From Gemmatales bacterium (GTDB lineage: Bacteria; Planctomycetota; Planctomycetia; Gemmatales; Gemmataceae): a DNA stretch of 64,000 nt. A program made the translations under genes and the position numbers. The stretch covers positions 248,001 to 312,000 of the forward strand of contig BPJP01000006.1 of the NCBI GenBank assembly GCA_026004675.1, read 5' to 3'. The notes under the pieces were generated by a model. The model was not told the DNA's origin. It did not search any database and saw only the letters and a program-made list of their open reading frames with translations. Shown here piece after piece: positions 3,695-10,438 of the stretch. Position 1 is the first letter of the stretch. Each line of letters starts with the position of its first letter.

Positions 3695-4035
3695 CGCGTG
3701 ACTCTCTGCCCGGACCTCATTGGCGGAGGAAAGACGGAAGTCACCAGGCGAACAGTCCCAGCCGCCCATCTGTGTTGCGTCAAGCCTGCACTTTTCCCCG
3801 ATACCTACGTTTCGCGAAACCGGCGAATCGCGCCGCTGATTAGCCGGTCCGCTTTTCCGCGTAACACAGGACAGCATTTCGCCGATCGAAAGTCCATCGA
3901 AGACGATGGTCTCTTCCTCTTGTATCTGCCTTCTACGTCGCTGCTGGAATGCCACCAGTCTCTTGTCGGGCAACGAACCATTTTCCAAGATAACTGCAGG
4001 TGGCCGCGCTCATCCGATGCCCCGAGGGCTGCGTT
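3695..4035 (+). other. Intergenic stretch, nothing recognised
   Basis: About 340 bases between the lipoprotein and the CbiL-like gene. Open frames here give no family-like protein on either strand, and I see no clear hairpin terminator or repeat. Confidence 0.4.
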
Positions 4036-4581
4036 ATGCCTCGCCGATTCACTGTCGTCGCTTTCCTGTGCCTCGGGTTGTTGCTCGCACCCAGCGATAT
4101 CGAATTGGCCTTCGCTCATCGGTTGATGGCAAAGTATCGGCTGTTGCCCGGCTACCAAATCCAGCTCGAAAGCTGGTTTGATATCAGTTCGGAATCCGCC
4201 AAAAGTGCTGAGGTTCTCGTCTATCGTCAAAACGGGGAGCTGTTGACGAAAGGAAGTCTGAACGACAAGGGAGTCTTCGTTTTCGAAGTAGCCCAAATCG
4301 AAACGTTGCGAATTGTGATCTCAGCCGCCGGTGGTCATCGCGCGGAAGTGACAATAGCCGCCCGCGAGCTGCGCCGGGCGTGGCCGGATTTGCCCGAGCC
4401 AGCCAAAGCCGAAGACGCGGAACCTTTCGCTGACCGTTCGCCAACGGTCGCCTGGCAGGATGTCTTGCTCGGCATCACCTTCGTTTTGGCCTTGGCGGCT
4501 TTCGTCATGAGCATGCGCAACGCCCAGGCTTTAAGGCAAACGAGAAACGGCAACTTGAATCAGGACGGTCCAAACCAGTGA
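4036..4581 (+). CDS. CbiL-like periplasmic protein with C-terminal membrane anchor
   Basis: 181 residues from the ATG at 4036 (GAGGG upstream). Layout: signal peptide ending at AFAH, a beta-sandwich domain with LVYRQNGELLTKGSLNDKG and LRIVISAAGGHRAE, a linker, and one C-terminal membrane helix (DVLLGITFVLALAAFVMS). The mature N-terminus beginning with His and the GHRAE motif match the CbiL/nickel-transport accessory proteins that accompany CbiMNQO-type metal importers. No other subunit of such a transporter is in the window, so its role in metal uptake is inferred only from the resemblance. The next gene, hemF, starts 33 bp downstream. Confidence 0.6.
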   Translation: MPRRFTVVAFLCLGLLLAPSDIELAFAHRLMAKYRLLPGYQIQLESWFDISSESAKSAEVLVYRQNGELLTKGSLNDKGVFVFEVAQIETLRIVISAAGGHRAEVTIAARELRRAWPDLPEPAKAEDAEPFADRSPTVAWQDVLLGITFVLALAAFVMSMRNAQALRQTRNGNLNQDGPNQ

Positions 4582-4614: not shown

Positions 4615-5529
4615 ATGGCTGAGTTCGAAGAATTGCATCGGCAAGCAGCAACGTATTTTCAGGAATTGCAGGATCACATTTGCCGGGCATTGGAAGAAGT
4701 CGATGGCAGAAAGCGTTTTGTCGAGGACCAATGGCAACGTGAGGGAGGCGGCGGCGGTCGCACGCGTGTGCTTTTCGACGGTGCTGTTTTCGAAAAGGGA
4801 GGTGTCAACTTCTCCGACGTGGATGGAGAATTCACCGAAGAATTCGCAGCCCAGATTCCCGGGGAAGGCAGGCGTTTTTCCGCTACCGGCATTTCATTGG
4901 TCTTGCATCCCCGTAATCCGTATGTCCCTACTGTTCATGCCAACTTTCGCTTCCTGACCAAGGGGACGGAAAGCAAACGCAAGGCGTGGTTTGGCGGCGG
5001 CTGCGACTTGACGCCCTATTATCCCTTCCGCGAAGATGTCATCTCTTTTCATAAAGTCTGGAAAAACGTCTGCGAACGGCATAGCAAGGTGGCTGACTAC
5101 CGGCGACTCAAAGAGTGGTGCGACGAATACTTCTTCTTGCATCATCGGGGCGAAGCACGCGGCGTCGGCGGCATCTTCTTCGACTATATGGAAACGAATC
5201 TCACCGACACCTTCGCCTTCGTCCGCGATTGCGGGAACGCGTTCCTCGAATCGTACCTGCCGATTGTCCACAAGCGCAAAGACACGCCTTTCGGCGACCG
5301 GGAACGCACCTTCCAGGAATTTCGCCGCGGCCGATATGTCGAATTCAATCTGCTCTATGACCGCGGAACCGTTTTCGGACTCAAGACCGGAGGACGGGTC
5401 GAATCGATCTTGATGTCGCTTCCTCCCGTCGTTCGCTGGTTTTATAACTATGCTCCCGAACCAGGTTCGCCCGAAGCGCAGCTCTATGAATTCCTGCAGC
5501 CCCGCGACTGGGCGTCGCTTCAAGAATAG
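4615..5529 (+). CDS. hemF: Oxygen-dependent coproporphyrinogen III oxidase
   Basis: 304 residues from the ATG at 4615, preceded by AAGGAG with a nine-base spacing; an upstream TTG at 4591 is less likely. HemF oxidatively decarboxylates coproporphyrinogen III to protoporphyrinogen IX using O2, a cytoplasmic step of heme synthesis. The family signature is clear: VHANFRF, the GGGCDLTPYYP block, the conserved GGIFFDY segment, and near the C-terminus RYVEFNLLYDRGT and SILMSLPP. Length matches the family (about 300). Presence of this O2-requiring enzyme suggests an aerobic or facultatively aerobic host. It is flanked by two secreted proteins of the metal-uptake accessory type. Confidence 0.97.
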   Translation: MAEFEELHRQAATYFQELQDHICRALEEVDGRKRFVEDQWQREGGGGGRTRVLFDGAVFEKGGVNFSDVDGEFTEEFAAQIPGEGRRFSATGISLVLHPRNPYVPTVHANFRFLTKGTESKRKAWFGGGCDLTPYYPFREDVISFHKVWKNVCERHSKVADYRRLKEWCDEYFFLHHRGEARGVGGIFFDYMETNLTDTFAFVRDCGNAFLESYLPIVHKRKDTPFGDRERTFQEFRRGRYVEFNLLYDRGTVFGLKTGGRVESILMSLPPVVRWFYNYAPEPGSPEAQLYEFLQPRDWASLQE

Positions 5530-5536
5530 ACGTGCT

Positions 5537-5623
5537 TTACTTTCGATGTCGAATCTTGGAGCGCATACGGCGTTTCTTCCGCCCGACTTTGCGCCGCCCG
5601 TTGCCTCGTCGACGACTCCCCAT
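5537..5623 (-). CDS. 28-residue highly basic mini-protein
   Basis: On the minus strand an ATG at 5623 opens a 28-residue frame ending at 5537. It is preceded by GTGGAGAA at good spacing and by a sigma70-like promoter about 40 bases further up. The product is more than half Arg and Lys (for example KVGRKKRRMRSKIRHRK at its C-terminus) with no acidic residues, a composition typical of very small ribosome-associated proteins such as the AURKAIP1/COX24 or bTHX type; the exact family is not settled. It converges on hemF with a 7-bp gap. It is too short for routine gene callers. Confidence 0.5.
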   Translation of the reverse strand: MGSRRRGNGRRKVGRKKRRMRSKIRHRK

Positions 5624-5662
5624 ACTTGTTCTCCACTTCGTTTCCACGTTTGCCAAGCTATT

Positions 5663-5690
5663 ATCATAAAACACCATCCTCGTAAGGCAA
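5663..5690 (-). promoter_or_regulatory. Predicted sigma70-type promoter for the 28-residue gene
   Basis: Read on the minus strand: a -35 box TTGCCT (5690-5685), a 16-base spacer and a -10 box TATGAT (5668-5663). The start codon at 5623 would lie about 30 bases after transcription start. A near-identical block recurs at 6957-7004. Confidence 0.45.
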
Positions 5691-5826
5691 GGGCAAGCCG
5701 GATCGTTCGGCCCTGATGCCGATAAAAAAGCGAAGGACATTTGCGTTGCCGAAATAAAACGATTAGGCTTTTGCCAAAGCCCGCTGAAACCCACCGGTTT
5801 TTTCCCGATCCGCCAAGGAGATTCCC

Positions 5827-6528
5827 ATGAAACGTTGTTGTCCCGCCTTGTGCCTGTTCGTGTTTTTGAGCGTTGCCACCTCCGCGTCTGCCCACTATCC
5901 GTGGTTTGTCATTGTTTCCAAAGGCGGCAAGCAAGGCACGCTGCGCCTCTACTTCGAAGAGGGGCCCCGGCCCGGTCCTGGCGAATTCCTCGATCCGTTT
6001 TTCAAAGGGAAATGCTGGCTCCGAACCCCCTCAGGCGAAAGCCAGATCATCCGACTCAATGATGAAAAACAAGGCAAGCAACGCTGGGCCTCCGCCAACG
6101 TGGACACCCCCAAGCCCCGCGCCGTCGAGTGCTTCGCCAAATGGGGCGTCTACAAGGGAAAACTCCTCTTCTACTATGCCAAACTGATCGACGTCGAAAC
6201 GACAAACGACCTTGTCAAAATCGGCCAGGCGCAAAACCTCGCCTTCGATCTCGTGCCGCGCATGAAAGACAACATGGTCGAGGTCGCCGTCCTCTGGAAA
6301 GGCAAACCCAAAGCGGGTGTCCCGGTCACCGTGGCCGGGCCAGGATTTCGCCGCACTCGACTAACGGCCAACGATCAAGGAATCGTTCGGTTTGAACCAG
6401 CAGGCAAAGGTCTTTACACCGTGATGAGCATGTTCATCGAACCGGACCCCGCCGGCGAAGATGACGGCAAAAAATACCAGGGGCTTCGTCAGACCGCCAC
6501 CTTGACCATCAATCTGCCGGTGAAATAG
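5827..6528 (+). CDS. Secreted DUF4198-type protein
   Basis: 233 residues with a clear signal peptide (hydrophobic segment ending ATSASAH), then HYPWFVIVS. The rest is beta-rich: a first domain to about residue 120 and a second with GKPKAGVPVTVAGPGF, a carboxypeptidase-regulatory-like strand pattern ending in an LTINLP strand. This is the layout of DUF4198 proteins, periplasmic proteins often found near nickel/cobalt uptake systems. An AAGGAG box sits just before the ATG. With the CbiL-like gene upstream of hemF it may belong to the same metal-linked group; that link is inference. Confidence 0.7.
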   Translation: MKRCCPALCLFVFLSVATSASAHYPWFVIVSKGGKQGTLRLYFEEGPRPGPGEFLDPFFKGKCWLRTPSGESQIIRLNDEKQGKQRWASANVDTPKPRAVECFAKWGVYKGKLLFYYAKLIDVETTNDLVKIGQAQNLAFDLVPRMKDNMVEVAVLWKGKPKAGVPVTVAGPGFRRTRLTANDQGIVRFEPAGKGLYTVMSMFIEPDPAGEDDGKKYQGLRQTATLTINLPVK

Positions 6529-6583
6529 AACTGGAATCGCTTTTTTCTGGCATGGCCGCAACGCCAGAAGTCGCCACTGGCGT

Positions 6584-6951
6584 GTCGCCGCCTCATTCTC
6601 TGCTTTTCGCGAGGAGTCGCTTCAACGCTGCCGTCATGCGTTTGTCGGAGTCGTCGGCAACCCAGTACCAGGCATCGTTGAAGCGATCCCGAAAACCTTG
6701 TGTCGTGGGGATGTAGCCTGGCCAGCATTCGCCGAAGCCGATGCAGAGGATAAGCGTAATAACTCATCGGGTGTGTGGCATAGGCGTGCAAAGCCAGCAC
6801 GGCTTGGTCCCGGTCCCAGAAACTAAGTGTTTTCAACCAGGGATCGATCAGGCCGTCAGGAGCCTCTCGAAAAGTCATGTTGCCTCCCGAGGCGCTGCTG
6901 CGAGCATAAGACACCTTGCCGTCGATCACGACCCGTCGATTGGAAGCGACG
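6584..6951 (-). pseudogene. Truncated duplicate of the ceramidase-like gene
   Basis: Nearly identical to two separated parts of the gene at 8950-10326. Bases 6584-6750 match 8941-9107 (C-terminal end), and 6755-6951 match 9603-9799 (middle), so about 495 bases are missing between them and everything upstream of the middle is lost. The frame shifts at the internal junction. High identity implies a recent duplication. Immediately beyond it, at 6957, a copy of the promoter-like block of 5663 follows. Confidence 0.85.
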
Positions 6952-6956
6952 AATCC

Positions 6957-7004
6957 GTCATAAAACATCACCCTCGTAAGGCAAGGGCGAGCCAGATGGT
7001 TCAG
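6957..7004 (-). repeat. Second copy of the promoter-like block
   Basis: About 48 bases closely matching 5663-5710 in the same orientation, including TTGCCT, a 16-base spacer and TATGAC on the minus strand. Here it points into the truncated ceramidase copy rather than into a functional gene. Confidence 0.6.
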
Positions 7005-7117
7005 CGCTGGTGCACACTTTATTCTTGGCTGATTTTTGTTGACAGCCAGCGAAGCGGAAGACAAACTATGGCCCGAAATGTCATCTCCCCTATATCCTGT
7101 CGACTCGGAGGACGATT

Positions 7118-8899
7118 ATGACTAACGTTCGTGTTGCGTTCGCGCTTGGCGTTGTTTTCTGGCCCATCATTCACATTTCCACTGCCGCTGCCCAAGATCC
7201 GAAGCTTCCTCCACCTCCATCCGGGAAACAATGGAAGTTGGTATGGGGGGACGAATTTAATGGAACCAAGCTGGATTTGACCAAATGGACCATCCGCACG
7301 ATGAAGGTTGGGCGAAACAAAACATGGACACCGAAAGCAATCTCGTTGGATGGGAAGGGGCATCTCGTAATTCGAACTTATCGTGAGAACGGTCAGGTAC
7401 GAAACGGAGCGATTTGGACAAACGCCGACAATGGCGATGAGACGAAGGCGAAATTCCGGAGAAAGTTCGGTTATTATGTCGCCCGCGTTCAATTCCATAA
7501 GCAGCCAGGTCACTGGCCTGCATTCTGGCTTTACAGCGGGGCCGCCTGGCACAAAAAATACGTGGGATGGAAGGAAGGTGGTAAGGACGGCACCGAAATT
7601 GACATTATGGAGAAACCCTGGTTGGATAACCGCGTCAATCATGCTCTGCATTGGGATGGATACGGGAAAGGCCACCAGCATGTAGCCCGACAAGTCACTG
7701 TCGATGGCATCATGAAAGGCTGGCATACTTTCGCCGTTCATTGGACAAAAGACAAGTACGTCTTTTATATTGACGGCAACCAGACGTGGGAAACGAGTGC
7801 CGGTGGTGTATGCCAGGTGCCACTACTAATTCAGATTTCTGATGAGACTGGTCTTTCCTGGGCCGGTGACATTAACAAGGCGAAATTACCTGACTATTTC
7901 CTTGTTGACTATGTGCGCGTTTATGATCTAGAGCCGATTCCGCCCGATCCCCAAAAGCCCTATAAAGGCATTGCCTGGAAAATTCCAGGACGTATTCAAG
8001 CAGAGGATTTTGACATCGGCGGCGAAGGTGTTGCCTTCCATGATGTGGACAAAGAAAACCAAGGTCAGAACAATTACAGAGGTAACCTACCCGTTGATCT
8101 TGAAAACTCCCTTGATGACGATGGAACGCCGAATGTTGGGTACACGAGCGACAACGAATGGCTCGAATATACCGTCGATGCGAGTTACGAGGGGTGGTTT
8201 GAACCCCAACTCAGGTTTGCATCAAAAAAGGTCGGCGGAGCAGAAGTAGGTCTGGAAGTTGATGGGAAGCGTGTTTGGACCATTCCCATCGGGAATACTG
8301 ATGGGTGGCAGAGTTACCAGACTCTTGCAGCGCCACTTGTATATCTGAAAAAAGGCAAACATGTCATTCGTCTTGTATTTGTAAAAGGAGGCGTAAATTT
8401 AAACTGGATTGAGTTCCTTCCCAAATACCAACAACAGCCGTTTAAGTTTGTCCGCCAACTTCCTGGCATGATCGAGGCTGAAGATTTTGACGAAGGCCCA
8501 GGCGGTTCCTTCGAAATTGACACTCGCCGGCCGAGCCAAGGATTCTTCTATCGTCCAAACACTGGGGTGGATCTGCAGTATTGCATGGATGTTAAACGTG
8601 GTGTAAACATTGGATACGCGATGGATGGTGAATGGGTCGAGTATACAGTAAACATCAAGGCTGATCAAGAATACACACCGGTGTTCCGGGTTGCGAGCCA
8701 AACTGGAGGAGCAGATCTTCGTGTCCAGGTAGACGGCAAACCTATCATTTGGTCGATTCCTGTCAAGGCAACAGGAGGGTGGCAAAAATACGAAACCCTC
8801 AAGGCTCCGCCTGTTAAGCTTCCAAAGGGAGAACACGTAATTCGTATTACCTTTGTGAAGGGTGGCGTCAATTTCAATTGGTTTGGATTTTGGAAATAG
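7118..8899 (+). CDS. Secreted GH16 glycoside hydrolase with two CBM6-like domains
   Basis: 593 residues with GGAGG before the ATG. Order: signal peptide (to about 25), a GH16 beta-jelly-roll domain (about 35-275) with the catalytic motif EIDIME (160-165; nucleophile E160, acid/base E165), then two family-6-like carbohydrate-binding modules starting near 288 and 447, each opening with an IQAEDF/IEAEDF strand. GH16 enzymes cleave beta-1,3/1,4 glucans or galactans such as laminarin, agar or carrageenan; the exact substrate is not decidable by eye. The gene is visibly more A+T-rich than its neighbours and lies between a full and a truncated copy of a ceramidase-like gene, which suggests arrival by transfer. 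Confidence 0.9.
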   Translation: MTNVRVAFALGVVFWPIIHISTAAAQDPKLPPPPSGKQWKLVWGDEFNGTKLDLTKWTIRTMKVGRNKTWTPKAISLDGKGHLVIRTYRENGQVRNGAIWTNADNGDETKAKFRRKFGYYVARVQFHKQPGHWPAFWLYSGAAWHKKYVGWKEGGKDGTEIDIMEKPWLDNRVNHALHWDGYGKGHQHVARQVTVDGIMKGWHTFAVHWTKDKYVFYIDGNQTWETSAGGVCQVPLLIQISDETGLSWAGDINKAKLPDYFLVDYVRVYDLEPIPPDPQKPYKGIAWKIPGRIQAEDFDIGGEGVAFHDVDKENQGQNNYRGNLPVDLENSLDDDGTPNVGYTSDNEWLEYTVDASYEGWFEPQLRFASKKVGGAEVGLEVDGKRVWTIPIGNTDGWQSYQTLAAPLVYLKKGKHVIRLVFVKGGVNLNWIEFLPKYQQQPFKFVRQLPGMIEAEDFDEGPGGSFEIDTRRPSQGFFYRPNTGVDLQYCMDVKRGVNIGYAMDGEWVEYTVNIKADQEYTPVFRVASQTGGADLRVQVDGKPIIWSIPVKATGGWQKYETLKAPPVKLPKGEHVIRITFVKGGVNFNWFGFWK

Positions 8900-8949
8900 A
8901 CGAATTGTCATTCCCAAGTCGGCGGCGATCCGCGATTGTGGTCGCCGCC

Positions 8950-10326
8950 TCATTCTCTGCTTTTAGCGAGGAGTCGCTTCAACGCTGCCGTCATGCGTTT
9001 GTCGGAGTCGTCGGCAACCCAGTACCAGGCATCGTTGAAGCGATCCTGAAAACCTTGTGTCGTGGGGATGTAGCCTGGCCAGCATTCGCCGAAGCCGATG
9101 CAGAGGACGAAGGAATCGGGAAACATCTGTTGCGCCTGCAACTGGTAGCCGACAAACGTCTCGCCGGGAAAGAGAAGGATTTTCGCCTTTCGGAAATCAA
9201 TCATTGGCATGTCGATGTTCAATCCCGTTTCGAGCCGAAGGCGGCTGGCTAAACCCATGGCGGCGAGAATCCGGTTGCGTGTGTTCGTTTTGGGATTGTG
9301 GAGCACTTTGCGCAGTGCCTCTGCCGTGTGCGATGGGGTTTGGCGAAACGCCAGGTCCAATTCCACCTTGCGAAAAGAAACCGACTCGAGTGGATGTCTG
9401 GTGGTGTTTTGCCAGGCTTTTTTCATGGCGTCGTAAAGTCGGCGGGCCAATACCTCACGATTGGCAGGGGCACCGTTGTTGTATTTGCCGGCGGTCACGT
9501 CGCCGCTGCAACCTGTGACATAGACCTGAAAAATGTTCGGGTTATCACGCTGGCGGTAGTCTCGCGCCATGCCGACGAAATCCCAACTGACTCCTCCACG
9601 ACCGTAATAACTCATCGGGTGTGTGGCATAGGCGTGCAAAGCCAGCACGGCTTGGTCCCGGTCCCAGAAACTAAGTGTTTTCAACCAGGGATCGATCAGG
9701 CCGTCAGGAGCCTCTCGAAAAGTCATGTTGCCTCCCGAGGCGCTGCTGCGAGCATAAGACACCTTGCCGTCGATCACGACCCGTCGATTGGAAGCGACGC
9801 GGTCGACCTTGGCCTGACCAATGCCCAGGTGGGTTATCCGGCGGGCGTTTTGCAAGCACCTGCTAACCGCCTTGGCAGTTCGGCGAATGCATTTGTCTTC
9901 GAATTCCGGATCGAACATCGCTCCCGGCAAACCGGCCTTGGCCAGTAGTTCTGCCGCACCGACGTCGGTCACGGGAGCATCGTGCTGGTGAAGGGAGCAG
10001 ACGAGGACTCGTGCAACGTCGGTTTGTGCTGCCTCGGCCAGCATCTTTCGCCATTTTTCATAGGAGCGATTGCGAATTTCACACCAGTCGACGGCACAAA
10101 GCACAATCGGTTTTTCCGCACCCAGCAAGACGAAGCCGCGTGCCTGAAGTGGATCGATGATTTCCTTTGCAGGCTGCCGCAACCCCGCAATGAGTGGATG
10201 TCCCACGGGACACGTGACATCGACCGAGAAGGTCGCGATTTTGTAGACCGGCTCGAAAGCGACGCAACGGGCCGAAGACAAGAACCATAGCATGCCGACC
10301 ATCACAGCCGCCAAGAACCGGCTCAT
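8950..10326 (-). CDS. Secreted neutral/alkaline ceramidase-like protein
   Basis: 458 residues from the ATG at 10326, which gives a clean signal peptide (MSRFLAAVMVGMLWFLSSA); an ATG at 10386 would hide it. Following blocks (TFSVDVTCPVGHPL, CSLHQHDAP, HAYATHPMSYYG, VTGCSGDVTAGKYN) match the N-terminal domain of the neutral/non-lysosomal ceramidase family. In that family His residues of HQHD and THP type bind zinc, and these are present. Planctomycetes carry many such paralogs whose true substrates are unproven, so amide hydrolysis of sphingolipid-like compounds is only a family-level guess. A broken duplicate of the gene lies at 6584-6951. Confidence 0.8.
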   Translation of the reverse strand: MSRFLAAVMVGMLWFLSSARCVAFEPVYKIATFSVDVTCPVGHPLIAGLRQPAKEIIDPLQARGFVLLGAEKPIVLCAVDWCEIRNRSYEKWRKMLAEAAQTDVARVLVCSLHQHDAPVTDVGAAELLAKAGLPGAMFDPEFEDKCIRRTAKAVSRCLQNARRITHLGIGQAKVDRVASNRRVVIDGKVSYARSSASGGNMTFREAPDGLIDPWLKTLSFWDRDQAVLALHAYATHPMSYYGRGGVSWDFVGMARDYRQRDNPNIFQVYVTGCSGDVTAGKYNNGAPANREVLARRLYDAMKKAWQNTTRHPLESVSFRKVELDLAFRQTPSHTAEALRKVLHNPKTNTRNRILAAMGLASRLRLETGLNIDMPMIDFRKAKILLFPGETFVGYQLQAQQMFPDSFVLCIGFGECWPGYIPTTQGFQDRFNDAWYWVADDSDKRMTAALKRLLAKSRE

Positions 10327-10438
10327 CCTGTTTTGCTCACGATCGCCAAAACAGGCTTCTCTGGTGGGAGGACGTCGCGTCGCCATCAGTTTGGTCCAAA
10401 GGGAAGAAATTGTTGGCTATCATCCGCGTGAAGCTTTA

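Follow-up and report, generated by a model that had tools for sequence, protein, structure and literature searches.

A near-universal 28-residue basic protein of the Planctomycetia, a candidate small ribosomal protein resembling bS22

Introduction

Very small, basic ribosomal proteins are obvious candidates for the identity of a short product rich in Arg and Lys, and several of them share a single site. In C. acnes, bS22 lies between 16S rRNA helices h27, h44 and h45 and contacts the 50S subunit, and mS38 and eL41 are placed at the same position (available text of PMC10085706, PMC6133939, PMC6582356, PMC7005279); the common 30S pocket of bS22 and mS38 is described explicitly (PMC10085706, PMC6582356, in part). 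eL41, or eS32, of Eukarya and Archaea is a very basic protein of 25–37 residues in the bS22 pocket (PMC7005279, PMC10085706, in the portions available). Cryo-EM density revealed a bS22 in Borrelia that had escaped annotation and starts with GUG, and its authors expect more such proteins in other bacteria; according to the available portion of the same report, mass spectrometry detected the Borrelia ribosomal proteins save bS22 (PMC10618245).

For most bacteria the list of ribosomal parts is taken to be complete. The gene described here is nevertheless near-universal in the class Planctomycetia and unnamed in Pfam and NCBIfam. Its product is comparable in size to bTHX (27 residues, basic, 30S) and to bL37 of Actinobacteria (24 residues, basic), with which it shares the string GRKKR; the bL37 site is on the 50S subunit, beneath 5S rRNA (PMC10085706, available text). 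Cleavage after each Arg and Lys leaves no peptide longer than four residues, so the protein would be hardly visible to trypsin proteomics.

Results

The gene and its promoter

The window, meaning the whole 64,000-nucleotide stretch analysed, carries a 28-codon gene on its minus strand (Table 1), the last sense codon of which ends at 5540. The initial annotation had described a strong ribosome site, sigma70-like boxes with a 16-base spacer and a product more than half Arg/Lys, and these features are all there: the product contains 11 Arg and 5 Lys among its 28 residues (57%). GGAG or a comparable purine run also precedes the start in many orthologs.

Table 1 Features on the minus strand of the window
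Feature	Position	Strand	Remarks
28-codon gene, product MGSRRRGNGRRKVGRKKRRMRSKIRHRK	5537–5623	minus	ATG at 5623, stop at 5539–5537
Shine-Dalgarno-like GGAG	5631–5634	minus	7 bases to the ATG; read from the sequence
Predicted sigma-70-like promoter TTGCCT-16-TATGAT	5663–5690	minus	promoter scan; 9 of 12 consensus matches
Copy of the 3' part of gene 8950–10386, truncated and with an internal deletion	6584–6951	minus	adjoins the copied block
Diverged copy of 5664–5719	6958–7013	minus	85.7% over 56 bases, ungapped; -10 box altered to TATGAC

A scan of 5400–7120 returned two such promoter sites, against 0.6 ± 0.9 in shuffled sequence, and transcription is predicted to start near 5656. The pattern recurs beyond the window. 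We scored the best TTGACA/TATAAT-like pair in the 138 bases upstream of 35 loci (the gene in the window, 30 other class loci and four from outside the class) against mononucleotide shuffles, using weights of our own choosing. The mean z of the best pair over its shuffles was 2.2; many of these pairs contain TTG[CT]C and have spacers of 16 or 17 bases. At 25 of the 35 loci no more than 5% of same-locus control windows, which include coding DNA, reached the promoter score. The mean score was 10.5, compared with 8.4 in the controls and 8.9 on the opposite strand of the same stretch. A sigma-70-like promoter is thus predicted before most of the 35 loci, as a trait of the family.

The gene stands alone. 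The coproporphyrinogen oxidase gene hemF (PF01218; 4591–5529, plus strand) converges on it. From 5827 onwards lies another plus-strand gene, whose match to DUF4198 is sub-threshold. This arrangement bears on the reading of the frame as a leader peptide or attenuator that regulates a neighbouring gene through its own translation. A short frame behind a good ribosome site often proves to be a leader, and a same-direction downstream gene is common to two trios of close relatives (L018/L023/L025 and L043/L044/L045). In the window, however, hemF is convergent, so the gene can lead nothing there, and across the loci the most widely shared neighbours lie on the opposite strand (hemF in 5 of 35; a short-chain dehydrogenase-like gene, assigned by eye, in 7 of 35, six of them listed). 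Conserved amino acids alongside synonymous sites near saturation also argue against a leader. We reject it for the window and, from the neighbours, generally, and give it very little probability.

Conservation and selection

When the 28 residues were searched in 59 relatives, 54 gave a match at E ≤ 1 and 53 at E ≤ 0.0011, and none held a second match better than E 0.1. Identity across the 30 best places, the window's own counted, is 82–100%. All 30 keep their own start and stop, whereas upstream the frame stays open over anywhere between 0 and 144 codons; conservation therefore sets in at the ATG at 5623, and in one ortholog (L020) a stop codon directly precedes the ATG. This is why we rejected a longer version of the gene, 85 residues starting in the same frame at a GTG at 5794.

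Comparison with 24 orthologs gave 371 differences that are synonymous and 128 that are not (mean pS 0.71, pN 0.086). Duplicate loci, the four non-class forms and any ortholog of fewer than 28 residues were excluded from the count. The 28-codon gene is under purifying selection at the protein level.

The distribution is that of a core gene. With a 15-row profile (A2), the gene was detected in 285 of 297 Planctomycetia genomes (96%) and in 149 of 154 genera; among the 261 genomes with completeness of 90% or more and contamination of 5% or less, 254 have it. It is nearly always single-copy, with identities of 64–100% within the class; three listed genomes have two A2 matches in this class-wide search, and 12 of the 297 have none. 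A search of named genomes returned at least 28 loci, all planctomycetes among the matches listed. The five relatives of the 59 that gave no match, and a sixth with a weak one (G002, E 0.34), were also empty in the A2 search. Given the stated completeness of the genomes, some 3.9 misses would be expected, and there may be true losses among the non-matching relatives, of which G022 and G027 are each 93% complete.

The frame is therefore a real gene, near-universal and single-copy in the Planctomycetia. That it has its own promoter, as initially claimed, and is a gene is well supported by this distribution, the purifying selection, the conserved start and stop and the recurring upstream promoter pattern; lack of conservation in relatives, which had been named as the observation that would count against it, was looked for, and the frame proved to be conserved. 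A chance open frame has its shortness alone in its favour, is refuted by the same counts in relatives and class genomes and by the selection on them, and can be given practically no weight.

Forms outside the class

To the A2 profile we added A5, built from non-class forms only, and searched a phylum sample of 294 genomes. At E below 1e-3 the two profiles together match 41 genomes, which comprise all 21 class members and 20 genomes from outside. Of the 21 class members, 16 are matched by A5 as well, with E 4.5e-6 to 0.04 and at identical places; the window's own gene is not among them. The stretch RRK[IVLM]G[SRQ]KKR is common to the forms, with two exceptions, one row having Q and one K-R within it. 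The non-class forms are divergent homologs of the Planctomycetia gene. Neither the planctomycete type nor a clear canonical bS22 was found in 247 of the 294 genomes, where the protein is either absent or diverged beyond detection.

Searches with family models and bS22 profiles

Searches of Pfam, NCBIfam and the PDB sequences gave no match to the window protein. Among the bS22 models specifically, PF08213 and NF047430 did not match it, and PF08213 found nothing above cut-off in 21 genomes. The bS22 proteins of Flavobacterium and Borrelia, though proven by structure, go unrecognised by Pfam and NCBIfam too; these models thus do not define the family, and their silence here says little. No planctomycete chain of this kind was found in the PDB.

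Direct bS22 searches miss the gene as well. The F. johnsoniae bS22 gave 12 weak matches in the 59 relatives, none where the gene lies; two bS22 profiles (A3 and A4) matched it in none of the 21 class members; and hhalign aligned six columns at a probability of 5%. A profile of three non-actinobacterial bS22 chains did find clear bS22 in 6 of the 294 phylum genomes (E 1.5e-9 to 6.8e-7; e.g. MPCGRKRRRAKINRHKRKKRSRQNRHKKR...), which a larger profile including those six sequences matches at E 3.7e-14 to 9.2e-13. These six loci (L116–L121, in G117, G198, G098, G135, G183 and G168) encode clear Bacteroidota/Borrelia-type bS22 in planctomycete genomes outside the class, and several of the genes start with GTG or TTG.

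Canonical bS22 (six genomes, or seven with a weak case, G062) and the planctomycete type (41) overlap in none of the 294 genomes. Replacement of one by the other is compatible with this; since an overlap below one is expected by chance, the zero is no proof of it.

The weak case in G062 is a 22-residue frame, MGSVLKWRRKKINKHKRKKRRR, followed by TGA, around positions 1501–1566 of locus L144. An actinobacterial-like bS22 start is here fused to the core of the other bS22 type, and the frame is either a natural variant of reduced length, a gene that has been broken, or the product of a sequencing error.

In the literature on bS22 and planctomycetes that we covered, which leaves most subscription journals outside, we recognised no description of a planctomycete bS22 or of this protein.

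Resemblance to known small ribosomal proteins

The Bacteroidota/Borrelia type of bS22 (PDB 7jil chain 5, 9i5v chain 10, 8fmw chain V) is like the planctomycete protein in length and in Arg/Lys content, the proven bS22 chains in the PDB having 28–33 residues and the window protein 28. Both have a turn of K[VIL] and a small residue in mid-protein and RH[KR]K near the C-terminus, and both are often unannotated and include non-ATG starts (PMC10618245, available text). They differ in that the planctomycete type has one residue less between the conserved blocks, does not have the invariant core HK[R] of bS22, with an invariant Gly in place, and in some forms lacks the RH motif. Actinobacterial bS22 (PF08213 COX24_C, NF047430) and mS38/AURKAIP1 also contain a short, highly basic element, but the planctomycete type shows no significant resemblance to the actinobacterial protein and no match to the family models.

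Single-protein pairwise alignments of the window protein gave p-values of 0.04–0.37 for bS22 (best with F. johnsoniae, global 0.039), 0.05–0.08 for bL37, 0.18–0.27 for eL41 and 0.28–0.64 for Thx. Profile permutation tests came after these. An earlier permutation test gave p 0.02 for bS22, against 0.042 for the yardstick, and p 0.11 for the pooled non-class forms against bS22; the non-class forms were split three ways after that pooled result, with added sequences. The column-permutation tests reported below concern four planctomycete groups, with p-values given as global/local and uncorrected for the number of pairs.

Against bS22 of the Bacteroidota/Borrelia type, p was 0.025/0.038 for the Planctomycetia group, 0.021/0.025 for families f54, f76 and f81, and 0.023/0.010 for f53; f73, f58, f79 and f90 showed no resemblance (0.78/0.68). 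As a yardstick, proven actinobacterial bS22 against the other bS22 type gives 0.043/0.054 in the same test. Actinobacterial bS22 itself resembles none of the four groups (p 0.27–0.91).

The other small proteins reach p below 0.05 with at most one group. Eukaryotic eL41 gives 0.038/0.107 with the Planctomycetia group and 0.40–0.88 with the others, and archaeal eL41 gives 0.06–0.69 over the groups, so that resemblance to eL41 is inconsistent. An MRWK string common to archaeal eL41 and the f81 form had suggested archaeal eL41 as the closest relative, which is unsupported (p 0.25–0.29 for that group). Thx of T. thermophilus (bTHX) gives 0.17–0.27 with Planctomycetia and 0.51–0.92 with the others. 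For bL37 the result is borderline and confined to the Planctomycetia group (0.084/0.030; 0.26–0.90 for the other three), and in that group alone eukaryotic eL41 and bL37 do about as well as bS22. Taken over all groups, bS22 appears to be the only small ribosomal protein tested that resembles three of the four, as weakly as the proven bS22 groups resemble each other.

Proposed function

The product probably binds rRNA or the ribosome. Its association with the ribosome is supported indirectly, by composition, by core-gene distribution and by the weak resemblance to bS22. Composition by itself would permit a nucleic-acid-binding peptide outside the ribosome, such as a nucleoid or RNA-chaperone peptide. 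A single copy in 96% of class genomes at 64–100% identity counts against such a peptide, and near-universal single-copy conservation of this sort is more typical of ribosomal parts; we consider it improbable.

On balance we lean, by a little, towards a 28-residue rRNA-binding protein that is a structural part of the 30S subunit, likeliest at the bS22 pocket, and regard the bS22 site taken separately as an even call. The gene would be transcribed alone from the predicted sigma-70-type promoter and translated from the ATG with its GGAG site, and the product, most likely a structural component of the 30S subunit, would most likely form a short helix on contact with rRNA and not before. Its likeliest position would be a pocket near the decoding centre, on the side towards the 50S subunit and between 16S helices h27, h44 and h45, which on this proposal it would share with bS22 (Actinobacteria, Bacteroidota, Borrelia), mS38 (mitochondria) and eL41 (Eukarya and Archaea), and where it may brace h44 and an intersubunit contact. 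We propose that the protein works like one of bS22 type, and do not file it as a proven member.

The evidence for a core protein of rRNA-binding type would fit equally well a planctomycete-specific small ribosomal protein at another rRNA site, bL37-like or new, and unrelated to bS22. The borderline bL37 values with the Planctomycetia group and the failure of direct bS22 searches are consistent with such a protein; the other three groups are unlike bL37, whereas bS22 resembles two of them. We hold this to be rather unlikely, though well short of negligible. A phylum-specific ribosomal protein, core to the Planctomycetia, with its own rRNA site and orthologous to neither bS22 nor any described ribosomal protein, is likewise a doubtful prospect.

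If the preferred bS22-pocket reading is correct, the pocket is filled in another large phylum, and the view of bS22, mS38 and eL41 as one widely hidden component is strengthened. A protein at another site would be a new part in planctomycete ribosomes, and a phylum-specific protein a component overlooked by annotation and trypsin-based proteomics alike, its shortness and basic character putting it beyond the reach of both.

A diverged copy of the promoter block

The initial annotation had also reported the promoter block to be duplicated at 6957–7004 with no gene behind it. A copy does exist, with wider limits and an altered -10 box (Table 1), and it stops inside that box. No intact gene follows it, but a truncated copy of the gene at 8950–10386 does: 6584–6750 equals 8941–9107 at 98.8%, and 6755–6951 equals 9603–9799 at 100%. 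The stretch 6584–7013 is thus a mosaic, in which two near-identical pieces of a neighbouring gene, the intervening 495 bases deleted, are joined to an older, diverged copy of the small gene's promoter block. As the gene piece is 99–100% identical and the block 14% diverged, the two probably do not stem from one recent copying event, or else the block drifted. The copy may be what is left of an earlier duplication at this place, the gene having since been overwritten, and it does not argue for a second promoter function.

The duplication is local. Exact matches to the 15-base core CCTTGCCTTACGAGG occur twice in the 6.03-Mb assembly, each time within the window, and 6958–7013 is the only other clear copy of the block in the assembly. 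The exact core is absent from 173 of 176 loci, the remaining three being loci of the window's own stretch. A genome-wide repeat was rejected, as up to two mismatches to the core give 11 matches compared with 16 for a reversed control pattern. A hairpin role was rejected as well, since the second copy folds well (-14.1 kcal/mol, z -2.4) but the first does not (-5.4, z +0.9).

Other genes in the window

The minus-strand frame at 8950–10386 encodes 478 residues that match nothing in Pfam or NCBIfam at E ≤ 1; we presume that its product resembles the neutral-ceramidase-like proteins common in planctomycetes. At 7118–8899 (plus strand) lies a gene for a 593-residue protein that combines a domain of glycoside hydrolase family 16 with two modules of CBM6/CBM35 type; the best NCBIfam match of this protein, kappa-carrageenase, is far below cut-off. 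Adjoining hemF, the plus-strand gene at 4000–4581 encodes a 193-residue protein with a sub-threshold match (E 5e-15) to a NikL-family subunit of nickel/cobalt ECF transporters.
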